Shown here in pieces: positions 6,796-43,815 of a stretch of DNA of 64,000 nucleotides. The number at the start of each line of letters is the position of its first letter. The stretch's first letter is position 1. This stretch comes from an uncultured Lachnospiraceae bacterium (GTDB taxonomy: Bacteria; Bacillota; Clostridia; Lachnospirales; Lachnospiraceae). The position numbers and the translations under genes are program-made. The stretch covers positions 24,288-88,287 of the forward strand of contig CACYPS010000007.1 of assembly GCA_902776305.1 (NCBI GenBank), read 5' to 3'. The notes under the pieces were generated by a model, which saw only the letters and a list, made by a program, of their open reading frames with translations, searched no databases and was not told where the DNA came from.

Positions 6796-6822
6796 TTTCG
6801 GATAGACAAACATGAGGTATGC

Positions 6823-7833
6823 ATGAGCAACATAGATTTTGTGATTACATGGGTGGACGGCCGCGACCCGGAATGGCGCAAAAGAAAAGAAGCCCTGAGC
6901 GAAAACAGTTTTGAAGATGAGCGTGAAGAACGCTACCGGGACTGGGGGCTGCTTCCCTACTGGTTCCGGGGAGTGGAGAAATATGCACCATGGGTGAGGA
7001 AAATCTGGTTCATATGTGATCAAAATCCGCCGGAATGGCTGAACCTGGATCATCCGAAACTGAACATAGTGCGCCACGAAGACTATCTGCCGGACGAATA
7101 TCGTCCTGCGTTCAGCAGTCATCCGATCGAGCTCAATCTTCACAGAATAAAAGGGTTGAGCGAGAGATTTGTCTATTTTAATGATGACATGTATCTTCTG
7201 AGACCTGTTAAGGAGAGCATGTTCTTTCGCAGGGGGCTTCCGTGTGACAGCGCCCTGCTCAATACGATTCCGACGGATGACCTCGCAGGCATTCCGGACG
7301 GAAGAATCTTTTATATGTTCCTGAATAATGCATCCTATATCAATCGGGATTACGATTTTCGCAGCTGCTTAAAGCGCAATCCGCTGAAATGGCTTCATCC
7401 GGTTTACGGCAAGGATCTTGTCCGCAACGCTATGCTCTGCATCTGGCCGCGTCTTGTGGGCACGGTGGAACTTCACCTCCCCCAGGCGTTCCTGAAAAGG
7501 ACATTCAGGGAGGCATGGGAGAAGGATTTCGACATTCTGGATATGACCTCACGGCACCATTTCCGGAATGATCTGGATGTCAACCAGTGGCTCGTCAGAC
7601 TGCACCATATTATGAAGGGCGAGTTTTCGGTAAGAAAGCCCATCCGCAATGCGGTCTTTACGCTTGGCAGAAATAACGAAGAGCTTGCGCGCACTGTGAG
7701 AGAACAGAAGATACCCATGATCTGCATCAATGACGCGTCGATGGATACGCAGACTTATACCGATTCCAAACGGGAGATACAGGCTGCTTTTGATGCTCTT
7801 TTGCCGCAGCCTTCAAAGTTTGAAAAAGGGTGA
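6823..7833 (+). CDS. Stealth family sugar-phosphate transferase
   Basis: 336 residues, starting with IDFVITWVDGRDPEW, the conserved region 1 signature of Stealth proteins; later segments (ERFVYFNDDMYLL, HRIKGL, DVNQWLVRLHHI) fit conserved regions 2 to 4. Stealth enzymes transfer hexose-1-phosphate groups and build phosphodiester-linked glycans. Its presence, with two TagF-type domains next door, says the polymer contains phosphodiester links. It begins 27 bases after the GT2 gene and is probably co-transcribed. Donor sugar unknown. Confidence 0.85.
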   Translation: MSNIDFVITWVDGRDPEWRKRKEALSENSFEDEREERYRDWGLLPYWFRGVEKYAPWVRKIWFICDQNPPEWLNLDHPKLNIVRHEDYLPDEYRPAFSSHPIELNLHRIKGLSERFVYFNDDMYLLRPVKESMFFRRGLPCDSALLNTIPTDDLAGIPDGRIFYMFLNNASYINRDYDFRSCLKRNPLKWLHPVYGKDLVRNAMLCIWPRLVGTVELHLPQAFLKRTFREAWEKDFDILDMTSRHHFRNDLDVNQWLVRLHHIMKGEFSVRKPIRNAVFTLGRNNEELARTVREQKIPMICINDASMDTQTYTDSKREIQAAFDALLPQPSKFEKG

Positions 7834-14529: not shown

Positions 14530-15480
14530 ATGACATATGCAATCAAGGCGGAGAATGTATCCATCCGCTACATGACTGGAGACTTTAAGGATATCGGTTT
14601 AAAGGAATATGTTTTGCGCCGCCTCACGCACAATTATAATGTCCACGAATTCTGGGCAGACAAGGGCGTGTCGTTCGAGCTGAAACCGGGTGATATGCTC
14701 GGCATCATCGGCGCGAACGGGGCAGGTAAGTCGACATTGCTGAAGGCTGTGTCCGGCATTATGATCCCTACTGAGGGGTGGGTCGATGTCAAGGGCAGAA
14801 TAGCAGCCCTGCTCGAACTTGCATCAGGTTTTGACAATGATCTTACGGTCCGGGAAAATGCGTATCTGCGCGGAGCGCTCCTCGGGTACACCCGCGAGTT
14901 CATGAACGAGAAATATGATGATATCATAGAGTTCGCGGAGCTTCAGGATTTCCAGGAACGAAGGTTCAAGCAGCTGTCCAGCGGTATGAAGAGTCGTCTG
15001 GCATTTTCCATAGCCTGCCTTGTTGAGCCGGATATACTGATTCTGGACGAGGTACTCAGCGTCGGAGACGGTGCATTTCGCAAGAAGAGCGAGGATAAGA
15101 TGCGCAGTATCCTCGAAAGCGGTGTCACTGCGATTCTGGTGTCACATACTATCGGACAGGTCAGGGATATGAGCAATAAAGTTCTCTGGCTCGACAAAGG
15201 AAAACAGATCTGCTTCTCCGATGAGGTGGAGCTGGTCTGTGATGCTTACGAGGAATTCCTTGCAACGAAAAAGGTCCCGCATTCCTGGGAGGACATAGAG
15301 AGTCTTGCGGAAGACTTCACGGTACGTCAGGAAAAGAAGAGGGCGGAGAAAGCGAAAACGGAGCAGCAGAAGCTGGTAGAAAAGCTCAGAAAGACCGATA
15401 CGAATGTTGCGAAGGCGGCAATCGAGGCGTATCTGAAGGAAGTAGAAGAAGAAGCAGCAGAAGAAGAAAAAACAGAATAA
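14530..15480 (+). CDS. Polysaccharide/teichoic acid ABC exporter, ATPase
   Basis: 316 residues. Walker A is GANGAGKST, the signature is LSSGMKSRL, Walker B is ILILDEVLSVGD, and the switch histidine lies in LVSHT. The opening IRYMTGDFKDIGLKEYVLRRL matches TagH/Wzt/RfbB-type proteins. The last 60 residues are highly charged (alternating E, K, A) and probably a coiled coil; it lacks the folded polymer-recognition domain of long Wzt proteins. It powers export with the permease upstream. The ribosome binding site is poor. Confidence 0.92.
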   Translation: MTYAIKAENVSIRYMTGDFKDIGLKEYVLRRLTHNYNVHEFWADKGVSFELKPGDMLGIIGANGAGKSTLLKAVSGIMIPTEGWVDVKGRIAALLELASGFDNDLTVRENAYLRGALLGYTREFMNEKYDDIIEFAELQDFQERRFKQLSSGMKSRLAFSIACLVEPDILILDEVLSVGDGAFRKKSEDKMRSILESGVTAILVSHTIGQVRDMSNKVLWLDKGKQICFSDEVELVCDAYEEFLATKKVPHSWEDIESLAEDFTVRQEKKRAEKAKTEQQKLVEKLRKTDTNVAKAAIEAYLKEVEEEAAEEEKTE

Positions 15481-21639: not shown

Positions 21640-22368
21640 ATGAGTAGAGAAGTAGAGGAACTGCAGAAAATAATTGATTCACATAACAGAATTGTTTTCT
21701 TCGGCGGAGCAGGCGTTTCAACGGAGAGCGGAATCCCGGATTTCCGTTCACAGGACGGTCTTTACAACATGCAGTATAAGTATCCGCCGGAACAGATCAT
21801 CAGCCATACGTTCTTTGTGCATGACACGAAGGAATTCTATCGGTTCTACAAGGATAAGATGCTGATTACGAACGTCGAACCGAATCCGGCGCACAAAAAG
21901 CTTGCCGAACTCGAAAAAGCGGGAAAACTTCTGGCAGTCGTTACCCAGAATATTGACGGACTTCACCAGCTTGCCGGAAGCAAAACAATTTACGAACTCC
22001 ATGGCTCGATTCACAGGAACTATTGCACACGGTGCCGCAAGTTCTTCGGACCGGACTATCTCAAGGAAAGTGACGGTATCCCGAAGTGCGACGCCTGTGG
22101 CGGAGTTATAAAGCCTGATGTTGTCCTCTATGAAGAGGGACTGGACAGCGATGTCATAAACGGGGCTGTCCGTGCGATTTCTAAGGCAGACTGCCTGATT
22201 ATCGGAGGAACTTCTCTGGTCGTATATCCGGCAGCGGGACTTATTGACTATTTCAATGGGGATAAGCTTGTCCTGATCAATAAGTCGGCAACTACGAGAG
22301 ATTCGATGGCTGATCTGGTGATCAGAGAACCGATCGGACAGGTATTTTCACAGATAGAGGTGCGTTAA
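21640..22368 (+). CDS. cobB: NAD-dependent protein deacylase, sirtuin
   Basis: 242 residues, full sirtuin core: GGAGVSTESGIPDFRS for NAD binding, TQNIDGLH, the catalytic histidine in ELHGSIH, four zinc cysteines (CTRC and CDAC), KPDVVLYEEGL, and GGTSLVVYPAAGL. It removes acyl groups from lysines in the cytoplasm, releasing nicotinamide and O-acyl-ADP-ribose. AAGGAGG precedes ATG 21640. Its stop shares one base with the start of the secreted protease gene (TAATG), so the two are probably translated from one message. Confidence 0.95.
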   Translation: MSREVEELQKIIDSHNRIVFFGGAGVSTESGIPDFRSQDGLYNMQYKYPPEQIISHTFFVHDTKEFYRFYKDKMLITNVEPNPAHKKLAELEKAGKLLAVVTQNIDGLHQLAGSKTIYELHGSIHRNYCTRCRKFFGPDYLKESDGIPKCDACGGVIKPDVVLYEEGLDSDVINGAVRAISKADCLIIGGTSLVVYPAAGLIDYFNGDKLVLINKSATTRDSMADLVIREPIGQVFSQIEVR

Positions 22369-25300
22369 TGAAGAGAAATGTTTGCACGAAGCTGACGGCT
22401 GTCTTACTGGCAGCCATTCTGATTATGCCGACACAGATGATTGCCCATGCCGAGGAATATGAGGCGGTCGACATATCTCCGGAAATGCAAACGAACCTGG
22501 AAGATGGGACTTTATGGAATGAGGACAATGAACCGTCTGAGGATCCGACAGGTTCCGGTGAAACGGAAGTACAGGTAATACCCGGTGCTGAAAACCTGGA
22601 AATTGCGGAAGACGTGTCAGAGGAAGATTTCGATCTGAAAGCGGAAGAATCGCAGCCGTACGGATCGTCAGATTATTCCGCGCCTTCCGACGGTACGGTA
22701 ACGATTATTCATAATGAAGGATATTATGTTCCGGAACCGGAAATGAATGACGACGGTCTTTACGCGATAGACGCGTATGAGGATGTGGAAAATGCAAGCG
22801 GTGAAATCATACCGGTCGTCGGATACGAAATCACTGAGGATACAGCGAAGGGTGAGGAACTGTTGGGGGCAGGGTCTTATCCGGCGGAGTTTTATCCGAC
22901 AGTCAGCACAGGCATTTCTTCACAGGGCGGAAACGATACATGCTGGGCTTTTTCCGCTATGACGAGCGGGGAGCGTTCTCTTCTGACGAAAGGCCTTGCG
23001 GACAGCGTCAATCTGTCGGAAAAACATCTTCTCTACGGATATTACAACCGCAGCGGGGATGTCGGAATACCGGCCACTAACTACAAATGGTACAATACGA
23101 AAGGATCTTTTTATATGGCGGTTGCAGCGATGGCGGATCTGCTCGGAGCTGCGGATGAAAATAAGTATCCTTATACGACGGATCCTCTGTCTCCGGAAGA
23201 GTACACGGATGATATTGCTCATCTTGAGGATGCGACCTTCCTTGCAAACTTTCCGACGGCCTCCGCTTCCTGGAAGTCTGATCTGTGGAACGCCGTGATA
23301 GAACAAATCAAGGGAAACGTCATGGAAAACGGAGCTGTCTGGCTTTCCATATATTCAGTAGATAAGCATTCTACGACGGAATGGTATACGGCATGGCCGA
23401 CTAAAACTACGACAGACGATAACGGCAACACTACGGTAACTTACGAGGATAAGCCCGCGGCTGATCATGCAGTGACGGTCGTGGGATGGAATGACGAGAA
23501 AGTTATTCCCGGTGCGGAAAATCCGGGTGCCTTTTACGTGCAGAATTCCTGGGGAGCAAACTGGGGAGAAGGCGGATATTGCTGGCTTTCATACGAAGAC
23601 GCGTCCATGAATAACCCGGTCGCATACCGTATGGAGCAGTCTGAGCTCGGAAAGACGCGTGATACCGAGGTGTTCTCTCATACCGGTACAGGATTCTGCG
23701 GCAAGGTTCTTGGTTCCACAAACCTGACTTACGGCGTAAATGTTTTTGAGACCGATCATTATGTCGCCATCGACTCCATCGGCTTCTACACCAAGAATGC
23801 CAATCAATATGAGGTAGCGCTCATTACCGATATTCCCGATCCGACCGATCCGATGAGCGGAACAGTTGCGGCAAGTGCACAGGGTACAGTTTCGGACAGC
23901 GGATTTCATAGAGTGAACCTTGATCGGAGCGTGACGATCGAGAAAGGAGATACATTTGCTGTCAAGGTACAATGCAAGAACGACGCGGGAAGATACTCGG
24001 TCACATTTGAAGGACCTGTTTCTAACCTGAGAAAAACAGTCTGTGACCCGGGTACATCCTACTTCTATTACAAAGGAAATCATTACGATTGTGCGACGAC
24101 GGAGAAATTGTCAAACCAGCTGATTTCAACCGACTACCGCAACATCTGCGCTTATGCATACGGAAACAAAGTTAAAGAGCTCCGGATTTCCGGAGATGTA
24201 TCAACTGCGACAGTGGGAGATACTTTTGCGCTGGAAGCTTACATGGAGGACGAACAGGGAACAGAAATCGAAGTAGCTCCGACATGGAGCAGCGATACGG
24301 AAGGCGTCACGGTCTCTAATGAGGGTCTTGTAACCGTGACTGACAGTGCTGTGACCGGAACCGTTACGATAAAGGCCGAATATGCGGATCAGATTGGGAA
24401 ATATCGATTTGATGCGGAAGTGGACGCTTCCGCAAGTGAGGTCTCCGGCCTGCGCCTCATCGGCGTTCCGGACACATCTTTCGTCATTGGACCGGAGGAT
24501 GACACGAACATAGGAGGTTGTGGCGACGTTACCAGAAATTCGGACGGAGCTCCGGTGCTGGACTATTTAATAGAAGAAACAGAGACGGCTTATTACAAAA
24601 TCGAGAATTTCTACACCGGACTTGTCATGACGCTGGACGAGGACGACGGCATGGGAAATTACTACGTGATCCAGGATGCCTGGAACGGCAGGGACGAACA
24701 GCTCTGGAGGATTTTGAAAGCCGAAGGCGGTTATATCATAAAGAACAAGAAAAACGGAGCCTGCCTTGCGATCTTCGACTCGGAAGGTGAAGAGTATGAA
24801 TTTATTGTGGCGAACGGAACGGCAGCCGTCTGGACAATTACTGAGAAAACGGCCGACCTTACCAAAGCAAAGATGTCCGTTCCTGTCTCCGCCGCGCTGA
24901 TAAACGGGAAAGCTACGGTGGAACCGACGCTGAATTACGGATACAGGACTCTCGTAAAGGGAAAAGAGTATTCCGTCAGCTTCAGTAACAACACGAAAGC
25001 CGGGGATGCTACCGTGACTGCGAAAGGCATAGGGTATATGACCGGATCACAGAAGGGGACTTTTACGGTAGTCAATTCCGCAGCCTCAATCACTTCCGGT
25101 AAGGTATACATGATCGTTCCGGTGAGGGCGCCGAAGACGACGCTCACAGTGCAGAAGGGAAGTATGCTCCCGAATACGAATATTTATCTCAGTACTCCCG
25201 GTACTTCGGAGGCACAGAGATTCATTTTCACAAAGAACTCGAACGGCACGTATACCATCACGGACCAGAAATCCGATTTTGTGGCAGGCATACGAAACAA

Positions 25301-25967
25301 TTCAACCGCCAACGCGGCCGTGATTGAAACGCAGCTGGACAAAGGAAGCAAGTATCAGAGATGGACGCTCAAAAAACAGAGCGACGGAAGTTATTGCATC
25401 CTGAACTCGCAGACGGGTAAGGCGCTTTATCTGATCGGCGGGAAAACCGCCAACGGAACAAACGTCGGTCAGTATGGCTATTCCGGTACCCTCAATCAGA
25501 GGTTCTATCTGGTACAGTCATCGGCGACCGCTCATACGTACAGCAATACATATACAATTCGTGCGGCCGGCAAGACATCCCTCGCGCTCGACATTGTGAA
25601 TGCCTCGAAAGACGGCGGAGCCAACGCCCGCATTTACACTTACAGCGGAGGTGCTGCCCAGAAATTCCGTCTGATGTACAGCGGGAACGGCTACTACCGC
25701 ATTATGAATGTGAATTCGGGAAAAGTGCTCGGAATAAAGGGGGATACAAAGACCAACGGGGCAAATGTCCGCCAGGCTACCTGGATGGCCACTGCGGGCC
25801 AGCGTTGGAAAGTGGTTAAGAACTCGGATGGCTCGGTGACTCTGCAGAGTGCGCTCGGAACTGCCCTTGATGTCTATGCGGGGTCGATGACTCCAAATGC
25901 AAACGTTGATTCCTGGGCTGTCAATAAGACGACTGCGCAGAAGTGGAAGCTTGTGAAGGTTTCCTGA
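22368..25967 (+). CDS. Secreted papain-like (C1A) protease with lectin-like and ricin-type domains
   Basis: 1199 residues. Signal peptide 1-28 (ends AHAEE). An acidic propeptide-like stretch leads to a C1A peptidase: C192 in NDTCWAFSA, H367 in ADHAVTVVGW and N393 in VQNSWGANWGEGGY. Then come a lectin-like domain (FETDHYVAIDSIGFYTKNANQYEV), a BIG2-like segment (WSSDTEGVTVSNEGLVTV), one ricin-like unit (residues about 745-820) and, after an insert, a C-terminal ricin B-type array (about 905-1199) with repeated QRW/QKWKL motifs. It probably binds glycans and cleaves proteins at the cell surface or outside. No anchor or LPxTG motif is seen, so secretion or non-covalent wall binding is inferred. 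Confidence 0.92.
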   Translation: MKRNVCTKLTAVLLAAILIMPTQMIAHAEEYEAVDISPEMQTNLEDGTLWNEDNEPSEDPTGSGETEVQVIPGAENLEIAEDVSEEDFDLKAEESQPYGSSDYSAPSDGTVTIIHNEGYYVPEPEMNDDGLYAIDAYEDVENASGEIIPVVGYEITEDTAKGEELLGAGSYPAEFYPTVSTGISSQGGNDTCWAFSAMTSGERSLLTKGLADSVNLSEKHLLYGYYNRSGDVGIPATNYKWYNTKGSFYMAVAAMADLLGAADENKYPYTTDPLSPEEYTDDIAHLEDATFLANFPTASASWKSDLWNAVIEQIKGNVMENGAVWLSIYSVDKHSTTEWYTAWPTKTTTDDNGNTTVTYEDKPAADHAVTVVGWNDEKVIPGAENPGAFYVQNSWGANWGEGGYCWLSYEDASMNNPVAYRMEQSELGKTRDTEVFSHTGTGFCGKVLGSTNLTYGVNVFETDHYVAIDSIGFYTKNANQYEVALITDIPDPTDPMSGTVAASAQGTVSDSGFHRVNLDRSVTIEKGDTFAVKVQCKNDAGRYSVTFEGPVSNLRKTVCDPGTSYFYYKGNHYDCATTEKLSNQLISTDYRNICAYAYGNKVKELRISGDVSTATVGDTFALEAYMEDEQGTEIEVAPTWSSDTEGVTVSNEGLVTVTDSAVTGTVTIKAEYADQIGKYRFDAEVDASASEVSGLRLIGVPDTSFVIGPEDDTNIGGCGDVTRNSDGAPVLDYLIEETETAYYKIENFYTGLVMTLDEDDGMGNYYVIQDAWNGRDEQLWRILKAEGGYIIKNKKNGACLAIFDSEGEEYEFIVANGTAAVWTITEKTADLTKAKMSVPVSAALINGKATVEPTLNYGYRTLVKGKEYSVSFSNNTKAGDATVTAKGIGYMTGSQKGTFTVVNSAASITSGKVYMIVPVRAPKTTLTVQKGSMLPNTNIYLSTPGTSEAQRFIFTKNSNGTYTITDQKSDFVAGIRNNSTANAAVIETQLDKGSKYQRWTLKKQSDGSYCILNSQTGKALYLIGGKTANGTNVGQYGYSGTLNQRFYLVQSSATAHTYSNTYTIRAAGKTSLALDIVNASKDGGANARIYTYSGGAAQKFRLMYSGNGYYRIMNVNSGKVLGIKGDTKTNGANVRQATWMATAGQRWKVVKNSDGSVTLQSALGTALDVYAGSMTPNANVDSWAVNKTTAQKWKLVKVS

Positions 25968-26004: not shown

Positions 26005-27090
26005 ATGCGTGACAGAATAAGAGAAAATGTATTTCGAAATATCAACTGTGCAGCACATATCATGCTTTGTATGGTCTTAACGGCATTGCTCCTTGCGGGC
26101 AATGCCGCTTTCGTACATGCCGGAGAAGCAGAGATTGTGTGTGTGATGGAGAGGACCGGCGACGGGAAGCTCGGTATGCGCATTGACGGCGGTAAAAATT
26201 CCGGTATTGATGCGTACGACCTCGATGTTGTCTATGATCCGCAGTCTGTCCGGCCGGTCGAGGCGGAGGCGAGGGGCGGAGAGCCGACGGCATTTGCATA
26301 TCAAGATATAAACGACACAGGCGTATTCCGCATCGTGGGTCTTATGCGGGAACCTCTGACGGAAGCGGGAACATTTCTGTACATAAAGTGGGAACCGCTA
26401 TCGAAGGATGACATACAATATGTTCCTGAGCTGACCGTGCGTGACCTCGCGGACAGCGAGGGGGAAGATCTCTCTTACGGGATTTCCTACACGGGAGTCG
26501 ACGGCGGTGCCGTCGCGCCGAGTCCCGCGAAGAGGACAGAGAGTGATTCAACAAATGGCGGCAGCCCTCAGGAAACCGACCGTACAGATGAGGCAGCGCC
26601 GGCGGGCGATGCGGATGACGGAAACGGATCGGGAGCACAAGTGAACGGCGATGTGGCGGAGACTCCTGCTTCGAACGATACCACTAATACGAACGCCGTA
26701 GCCGCGGATGGCAATGCGGCCGGGCAGAACAGGAAAGACCGTGCACATCAGAATTCTGCAGAGGACCCGGACAATAGCCGGATGGGGACGGATGAGAGCA
26801 GCGGACAGAAGAAGGACGGCGCAGGCGACGCAAGCAGTGAAGATTCCTCTGCGGATGATAAGGATGCAGGCAGTACAGACCGAACGGATTCTCAAGCGGA
26901 GGACTCTTATGGATCAGAAAACAGCGCGCCTGATGCAACTCCCGAAGCACTCGCTGAAGATGCGGTTGAGCAGAAAGCAGACGGTAAACCGGCTTCCACA
27001 AACGGAGCTGCGGTGATCATCGTGCTTATTCTGGCAGCGGCTCTCGGCGGAGTCTACTATTATAATAGAAGCAAACATTCGCAGTCCTGA
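26005..27090 (+). CDS. Cohesin-like surface protein with C-terminal membrane anchor
   Basis: 361 residues. Signal peptide to about residue 36 (VHAGEA), then a domain of about 130 residues (MRIDGGKNSGIDAYDLDVVYDPQSVRPVEAE ... GVFRIVGLMREP) that resembles cohesin or cohesin-like carbohydrate-binding folds. A disordered acidic Ser/Thr/Asp linker leads to a C-terminal hydrophobic helix (VIIVLILAAALGGVYYY) and the tail NRSKHSQS. The layout resembles a sortase substrate, but the residues before the helix (KPASTNG) are not a canonical signal. The last codons and TGA lie in a repeat (27072-27090) found again at 27382. It starts 37 bases after the protease gene. Confidence 0.75.
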   Translation: MRDRIRENVFRNINCAAHIMLCMVLTALLLAGNAAFVHAGEAEIVCVMERTGDGKLGMRIDGGKNSGIDAYDLDVVYDPQSVRPVEAEARGGEPTAFAYQDINDTGVFRIVGLMREPLTEAGTFLYIKWEPLSKDDIQYVPELTVRDLADSEGEDLSYGISYTGVDGGAVAPSPAKRTESDSTNGGSPQETDRTDEAAPAGDADDGNGSGAQVNGDVAETPASNDTTNTNAVAADGNAAGQNRKDRAHQNSAEDPDNSRMGTDESSGQKKDGAGDASSEDSSADDKDAGSTDRTDSQAEDSYGSENSAPDATPEALAEDAVEQKADGKPASTNGAAVIIVLILAAALGGVYYYNRSKHSQS

Positions 27091-27422
27091 CGGGAGACAA
27101 AAAGTTACCATTCAGCTGCCTTTCCATCCAAGCAGTCCAAAGGCAAGCGGTATACTATTCAAGCGGAAAACTCTCGCAGTCTTGACGGGAGACAAAAAGT
27201 CACCATTCAGTTGCCTTTCCATTCAAGCAGTCCAAAGGCAAGCGGTATACTATTCAAGCGGAAAAGACTCTCAGTTTTGACGGGAGGCAAAAACCTAAAA
27301 AGCAGACATCTTTCGGGAACATCGAGTTACCATTCAGCTGCCTTTCCGTACAAGCAGTCTTAAGGCAAGCGGTATACTATTCAAGCGGTAAACATTCGCA
27401 GTCCTGACGAGAAACAAAAACC
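27072..27422 (+). repeat. Tandem array of about 95-bp units, three copies plus a partial fourth
   Basis: Units begin at 27081 (GCAGTCCTGACGGGAG), 27176, about 27268 and 27388. They share TACCATTCAGCTGCC-like, CAAAGGCAAGCGGTATACTA and TTCAAGCGG segments; the third unit has about 31 extra bases. The sequence corresponds to the left arm of the 257-bp palindromic element that follows, iterated outward. The first unit overlaps the 3' end of the cohesin-like gene. Confidence 0.85.
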
Positions 27423-27582
27423 ATTGCACTCTGTGTGACCAAATGTATGCTGTAAGCGACACGCGGGAACACAGAGTGCAGATATGGTTTTTTGTTTCGC
27501 AAGTCAGGACAAGAGTTTACCGATGAATACGTATACCGATGCCGCAGGATATGCATTCCATAGAAGGCAGCTGAATAGTAAC
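27326..27582 (+). repeat. 257-bp near-palindromic repeat element, copy 1
   Basis: Ends are GTTACCATTCAGCTGCC and its near complement GGCAGCTGAATAGTAAC. The arms stay complementary with interruptions up to a centre where TGCACTCTGTGT (27425-27436) pairs with ACACAGAGTGCA (27469-27480) around a 32-base loop. Copy 2 at 43436-43692 has the same length and is inverted. No ORF or transposase is inside. It sits between a surface-protein gene and the rpsF promoter. Possibly a MITE-like element or a structured RNA. Confidence 0.85.
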
Positions 27583-27622
27583 GCAGGATATGCATACAAC
27601 TGAAGGCAGCTTGAATAGTAAC
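27544..27622 (+). repeat. Duplicated right end of element copy 1
   Basis: Two tandem units of about 39-40 bases (27544-27582 and 27583-27622), each starting GCAGGATATGCAT and ending GAATAGTAAC. Confidence 0.8.
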
Positions 27623-43266: not shown

Positions 43267-43425
43267 GTTACTATTCAGCTGAGTTTCAGAAAATACATGA
43301 CCTACGGCAGCGGTATACATATTCATCGGTAAACTCTTGTCCTGCCTTGCGAAATCAAAAATCATATCTGCACTCTGTGTTCCCGCGTGTCGCTGATGCA
43401 TACAATTGGTCGGACAGAGCGCAAT
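43267..43425 (-). repeat. Truncated copy of the 257-bp element
   Basis: Begins GTTACTATTCAGCTG one base after the stop of the HtrA-like gene, runs through one arm and the centre (GCACTCTGTGTTCCCGCG), and ends in a decayed version of the inner repeat (GGACAGAGCGCAAT). The second arm is missing. Confidence 0.8.
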
Positions 43426-43435
43426 GAGAAAAGAT

Positions 43436-43692
43436 GTTACTATTCAGCCGGCTTTTATGATATGCATGACCTACGGCAGCGGTATACATATTCATCGGTA
43501 AACTCTTGTCCTGCCATGCGAAACGAAAAACTATAACTGCACTCTGTGTTCCCGCGTGTCGCTTACAGCATACACTTGGTCACACAGAGTGCAATAGTTT
43601 TTGTTTCTCGGCAGGACTGCGAATGTTTACCGCTTGAATAGTATACCGCTTGCCTTAGTTCTGGCTATTAAATGAAGCAGCTGGATAGTAAC
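43436..43692 (-). repeat. 257-bp near-palindromic repeat element, copy 2
   Basis: Same length as copy 1 and inverted relative to it, as shown by the central loop (CCCGCGTGTCGCTTACAGCA here, its complement in copy 1). Inner arms TGCACTCTGTGT and ACACAGAGTGCA are perfect; outer ends are GTTACTATTCAGCCGG and CAGCTGGATAGTAAC. No ORF or obvious target-site duplication. Confidence 0.85.
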
Positions 43693-43815
43693 ATGAGGTG
43701 AAGAGAGAGCAGCCGAATGGTAGGATGAGGCGAGAGAGCAGTCGAATAGCAACAGGGGGTGAAAGAAGAACGCCGAATAGTAGGATGAAGCGAGAGAAGA
43801 ACACCGAATGCTAAG
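43677..43815 (-). repeat. Degenerate ~30-bp tandem repeats after element copy 2
   Basis: Units start at 43677, 43709, 43738, 43768 and 43799. Each has a form of GCAGCCGAATGGTA followed by a GATGAGGCGAGAGA-like stretch. They look like the element's outer end iterated and diverged. Confidence 0.7.

Follow-up and report, generated by a model that had tools for sequence, protein, structure and literature searches.

The locus examined here raises the question of what a long near-palindrome of DNA, present in two opposed copies on one contig, represents: a mobile element, a structured RNA, or both. In the window, by which we mean the whole stretch of 64,000 nucleotides from an uncultured Lachnospiraceae bacterium that was analysed, the initial annotation described two inverted full copies and a half copy of such an element, and offered a non-autonomous mobile element and a long structured RNA as readings. 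We propose, with a probability of about 0.95, that it belongs to the MITEs, short transposons that encode no transposase and depend on one supplied from elsewhere. The palindromic element itself is real: two 257-bp near-palindromes of equal length and opposed orientation are found where they had been placed, and their arms do meet at TGCACTCTGTGT/ACACAGAGTGCA, the junction that flanks a loop of 32 bases. The half copy is likewise present, as element positions 97-257, and ends at 43426 and not at 43425 as first given. The left-arm-only copies at 27073-27295 and the right-end repeat at 27582-27611 come in addition to those first described. The parts of the element in the window are as follows.

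27326-27582, plus strand: full copy 1, an imperfect palindrome of 257 bp (from sequence, repeat search, fold and alignment)
27388-27518, plus strand: conserved core of copy 1, 131 nt
27437-27468, plus strand: apical loop domain of copy 1, 32 nt, read directly and conserved across copies
27326-27344, plus strand: left terminal inverted repeat of copy 1
27564-27582, plus strand: right terminal inverted repeat of copy 1
27073-27103, plus strand: left-arm fragment (element positions 65-95), overlapping the end of the ORF at 26005-27090
27104-27198, plus strand: tandem left-arm copy (element positions 1-95)
27199-27295, plus strand: tandem left-arm copy (element positions 1-97)
27582-27611, plus strand: right-end repeat
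43436-43692, minus strand: full copy 2 (alignment over 43436-43657; remainder partly by inspection)
43500-43630, minus strand: conserved core of copy 2
43267-43426, minus strand: tandem half copy (element positions 97-257)
43712-43797, strand not given: three degenerate repeats resembling the terminal repeat, the resemblance by eye

Folding, which had been suggested as a check, gave a minimum free energy of -127.8 kcal/mol for copy 1 (z = -14.8) and of -129.6 kcal/mol for copy 2 (z = -14.3), with none of 200 dinucleotide shuffles as stable in either case. It had been stated that the element has no ORF; none of 100 amino acids or more overlaps either full copy, and 257 bp is in any case too short for one.

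The element is far from private to this contig. We denote the genome of the window G000, the compared genomes of the genus by other G numbers and the examined loci by L numbers. A BLAST search found nine full or near-full copies in G000 plus partial ones; the apical motif was counted there 16 times, and its reversed control not once. Matches by BLAST were found in six of 61 sampled genomes. Of 42 genomes of the genus, nine were matched by R1, a covariance model built on the core, and nine by R2, a model of the shorter form. The latter gave 70 matches in G003 and at least 87 in each of G018 and G025, 87 being the number of candidates scored, and one site may be scored on both strands; a hand count of distinct sites among the matches listed gave at least 61 in G025, at least 57 in G018 and at least 32 in G003. 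Across a family sample of 397 genomes, with nine candidates scored per genome so that weak copies could escape, the sole match was the window's own genome. Named records bearing the apical motif are assemblies of uncultured Lachnospiraceae, Clostridiales and Clostridia, including a goat ileum bin. Phage and plasmid collections held no match to the element, and viral contigs no match to two element patterns. The impression that this is not a recognised named family was upheld in Rfam, which gave no match at the gathering threshold over the whole window and, for the element in nine related loci at an E-value threshold, only sub-threshold matches of microRNA type. Separately, L155:4158-4237 matches the glycine riboswitch aptamer above the gathering score.

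With respect to genes, copy 1 has ribosomal protein S6 and a 361-aa ORF (26005-27090) that matches nothing in Pfam as its neighbours; beside copy 2 are an HD-domain protein and a protease of trypsin-like/PDZ type. The 361-aa ORF ends within the element fragment at 27073-27103, so that its last codons and stop derive from the element. Elsewhere in the window, the ORF at 22368-25967 carries ricin-type lectin repeats, a lectin-like domain and a papain-family protease domain. Placement was also scored in G025, where 42 forward matches were strong and 41 could be used, the other being cut by the end of its own stretch: 29 of the 41 lie outside crude ORF calls, six lie in divergent spacers, and orientation relative to the adjoining genes is mixed, with no clear preference. 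The earlier description of the copies as lying beside surface-protein genes is upheld only in part in the two neighbourhoods of the window, and neither these nor the 41 copies support it as a general rule.

The reading as a MITE rests on dispersed copies, inverted ends, duplications and an empty site. Among the 32 G025 copies measured (nine of 41 were left out), 31 are 198-212 bp long with ends GTAACAGTTCAGACAGGCTG and its complement; removal of the one overlong copy from alignment A5 leaves 31 rows. The terminal pattern outnumbers its control 54 to 0 in G025, 42 to 1 in G018 and 5 to 0 in G035, and in G000, most of whose ends deviate from the pattern, it is not enriched (5 against 3). When flank lengths of 4-12 bp were tried, nine lengths in all, flank identity in 31 G025 copies peaked at 8 bp (mean 3.03 versus 2.06, z = 4.3), the other 10 of the 41 having no recognisable ends or short flanks; a perfect 8-bp duplication is present in three of the 31 and lacking in 28. 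In a further set of 10 end pairs, one has identical flanking 8-mers and two match at seven of eight positions by eye. One copy that lies between identical 8-mers is L235, which measures 338 bp and is enlarged at the tip. Five of the 31 G025 sites were then compared with G018, G003, G011 and G005. At the first, the G018 locus is uninterrupted and holds a single GGGCAGAG, which is the one clean empty site and the kind of comparison in relatives that had been proposed. At the second, G018 is judged to run through the entire junction from the extent of its BLAST match, the printed alignment ending before that point. At the third, G011 is uninterrupted and G018 is interrupted at the identical point, and at the fourth two stretches of G018 correspond, an interrupted one on contig C258 and a similar one on contig C160 that continues free of the element. 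Terminal inverted repeats, target-site duplication and a short, multicopy form without a transposase gene are all observed, as expected of a MITE, and the suggestion of a non-autonomous mobile element is supported by copy number, inverted ends, 8-bp target duplications and the empty site. Two copies, at L146 (about 6814-7015) and L153 (about 14926-15125), appear by eye to be enclosed by outer inverted repeats of the type GGGACGGTTCTTTT / AAAAGAACCGTCCC.

Copies of the element are modular, and some are rearranged. The tip is a short loop in G025-type copies and a GACCA..CGGGA domain in G000-type copies, and two copies on contig C3 of G000 (L022) are nearly tipless. In two enlarged copies, L235:312-649 (338 bp) and L236:268-565 (298 bp), the tip bears a nested hairpin that is alike in both. 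By eye, a module of GACC(A/G)A opposite GC(A/G)GGG lies in the basal internal loop and, in some copies, recurs within the apical domain. At L245:225-425 the core is now a near-perfect palindrome from which the internal loops are gone, as would result from the copying of one arm onto the other. At one orthologous site (L186 versus L194), G022 retains no more than about 100 nt of the element, which looks like the outcome of a deletion that took one arm together with the tip.

Does the core, then, do anything beyond being carried along? AAACATT, GTCC, GAGA, TCGCA and GGAC are kept in the core across lineages, together with covarying helices, as the arms diverge, and the internal loops of the core are invariant in the aligned copies. 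RNAalifold predicted 34 core pairs in the long form, 14 of them changed on both sides, and 52 pairs in full-length G025 copies, 26 of them changed on both sides. Alignment A1 comprised 33 of 37 hits, two false hits and two tipless copies being left out, and alignment A2 comprised 22 copies, three matches being skipped. Mispairs of G-U against A-C stood at 58:4 in the core, one isolated pair (columns 24/196) being left out, and at 13:17 in the arms; 37 of the 58 core G-U pairs stem from two pair positions at which G-U is commonest, and in an earlier count 33 of 44 stemmed from one invariant pair. Because one invariant pair dominates that earlier count and RNAalifold itself favours G-U, a control was made in which both strands were folded. 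For pairs common to both strands, G-U:A-C was 9:2, 11:1 and 12:2 in the core and 7:13 and 8:6 in the arms; for the union of pairs the core alignments gave 57:42, 44:58 and 65:44, and the arm sets 25:25 and 25:37. The plus strand was the more stable in 28/31, 33/33 and 22/22 core sequences and in 17/31 and 2/11 sequences of the arm sets, counts which are not independent since two core alignments share G025 copies and the copies are related. Taken together, these strand results hint moderately, and short of proof, that selection acts on the RNA.

Substitution rates were compared in two sets of element pairs. Over nine orthologous pairs of G000 and G022, differences amount to 26/1177 (2.2%) in the core, 92/1104 (8.3%) in the arms and 149/2710 (5.5%) in the flanks, the flanks having been aligned locally in place of earlier figures inflated by misalignment; this set leaves out L193/L183, which has no tip, and L194/L186, which is truncated. 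Over ten pairs of G025 and G018, drawn from 47 and 48 elements respectively, the core (59/927, 6.4%) is slower than the arms (180/910) and is not clearly slower than the flanks (347/4334, 8.0%; p = 0.09). The core differences in this second set are uneven, with one in each of four copies and up to 15 in others, and three of the ten copies exceed 10%. The fast arms may reflect arm-to-arm correction, and a function of the core at some copies is plausible from this pattern. The earlier suggestion of a long structured RNA has indirect and partly mixed support: compensatory changes, invariant loops, the slow core, the G-U excess at pairs common to both strands and the stabler fold of the plus strand in the core speak for it, and the union strand counts, the L245 derivative and the comparison of the G025/G018 core with its flanks speak against it.

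The strongest competing explanation accepts a mobile element and has its core kept as DNA only, without a role as RNA, the palindrome staying paired through template-switch (quasi-palindrome) correction or because a DNA hairpin is recognised; we put it within reach of even odds, if somewhat below them. The near-perfect palindrome at L245 is the kind of derivative it expects, two-sided changes occur in the arms as well as in the core, correction could produce arms that change faster than flanks, and both the lack of a clear bias in gene orientation among the 41 G025 copies and a strand bias that is weak or gone in the union of pairs sit comfortably with it. Correction should, however, remove asymmetric internal loops, yet these are invariant in the aligned copies, and the excess of G-U over A-C at pairs common to both strands is confined to the core, being not clearly seen in the arms. 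An unlikely alternative is that the element is a bidirectional transcription terminator or 3′-end stabiliser which selection has placed behind genes; the strong hairpin, the A- and T-runs in its stem and the 29 of 41 copies outside crude ORF calls would suit such a role, but gene orientation is mixed, copies also occupy divergent spacers, and the duplications and the empty site indicate arrival by transposition.

If the element is a MITE, the next question is what moves it, and insertion sequences of the genus provide a candidate. One insertion sequence, in G035, has the ends GTTACTATTCACA and GTTACTGTTCACA around an ORF of 565 codons and is flanked by the 8-bp duplication CTTGGCGT; its protein matches PF03050 with E = 4.7e-17, and one from G033, where one insertion-sequence end was observed and the transposase match has one internal stop, does so with E = 1.3e-16. 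G027 has four copies of an insertion sequence with GTAACTGTTCAGAACCCC at both ends and, by eye, 8-bp duplications in three of the four, and its transposase-like protein shares 26% identity with the G035 protein. In the kind of their ends and in the 8-bp duplication these divergent members of the IS66 family (PF03050) agree with the element, which differs in having no transposase gene; the likeness is to the divergent members and not to the ordinary IS66 of G000, which was ruled out as the source of the ends since its own differ (GTAAGCGCCTAATAA). As the ends are common to the element and to insertion sequences of the genus, an IS66-like origin is likely, and we are confident, a little less so than of the MITE itself, that the element is mobile with ends of the IS66-like kind.

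The identity of the mover is less firm. A profile of four IS66-like proteins found relatives in G035 and G033, which contain both insertion sequence and element, and in G027, which contains the insertion sequence and lacks the element. At E 0.01 it found none in the element carriers G022, G025, G018, G003, G005 and G011, and its match in G000 is weak (E 0.001) and falls at ordinary IS66. Exact matches to one terminal pattern in G025 showed no two ends in inverted orientation at a spacing of 1-3 kb, as expected around an autonomous copy. As no transposase relative was found in six of nine element-bearing genomes and the match in G000 is weak, the mover is something we infer, and a transposase of the divergent IS66-like group is the probable one, on the strength of the shared ends; in the richest genomes it may have been lost, may lie in missing sequence, or may be a different transposase. 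That a Y1 transposase moves it, as a hairpin element of REP-like or IS200/IS605 type, is very improbable. Such elements, as imperfect hairpins with conserved bulges, do generally resemble this one, but the 8-bp duplications do not fit their Y1 mechanism, and Y1 matches, in 22 of 42 genus genomes (eight of nine element carriers, 14 of 33 non-carriers), do not track the element, a distribution that gives no support for placing it in REP/RAYT or IS200/IS605.

We propose a model for the MITE that most reasonably fits these observations. Its inverted ends would be recognised by a transposase, most likely a divergent IS66-like one, and insertion would duplicate 8 bp of the target. After insertion, the hairpin would change by arm duplication and by arm-to-arm correction, as the derivatives suggest. 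The core, with its bulged structure, might act as RNA, in one orientation and inside neighbouring transcripts, where it would be a hairpin that serves processing or stability; such an RNA role we hold tentatively, at odds clearly below even. Doubtful, and more so now that the union-of-pairs counts have weakened the strand signal and lowered our odds slightly, is the fuller picture of a transposon-dispersed RNA family, in which a constant bulged basal helix would be selected as a one-strand RNA bearing exchangeable apical domains (the short loop, GACCA..CGGGA or the larger nested hairpin) and a doubled GACC(A/G)A/GC(A/G)GGG module, and in which a host protein could read the transcripts at dozens of sites per genome.

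Several known systems invite comparison. Bacterial MITEs are described as short and mostly intergenic, with terminal inverted repeats, target direct repeats and transcripts predicted to form stable stem-loops (PMC10969869), and the element has these general features in common with them. The main text of that review contains neither "IS66" nor "Clostridi", and a literature search among open-licence papers returned no paper evidently on this MITE family. BOX, RUP and SPRITE of Streptococcus pneumoniae are described as dispersed repeats with extensive secondary structure, BOX being called modular (PMC3049150), and the element resembles them in dispersal, structure and modularity; it differs in its organism and in being a single long bulged hairpin with a variable tip, and the likeness is drawn from their description. 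ERIC and Correia elements are reported to alter the cleavage or level of transcripts that contain them (PMC10969869, PMC3049150); they are likened here, by description alone, as dispersed repeats to an element known from its DNA sequence. By analogy, the way of life of the element appears similar to that of BOX, RUP, ERIC and Correia as these sources present them, with ends and a core of its own.

The finding adds a MITE family with IS66-like ends, in uncultured gut bacteria, that occupies dozens of sites in each of three relatives. Its copies are natural material on the duplication, correction and tip enlargement of long palindromes. If the core is truly an RNA, this would be a transposon that spreads one regulatory or processing RNA genome-wide.
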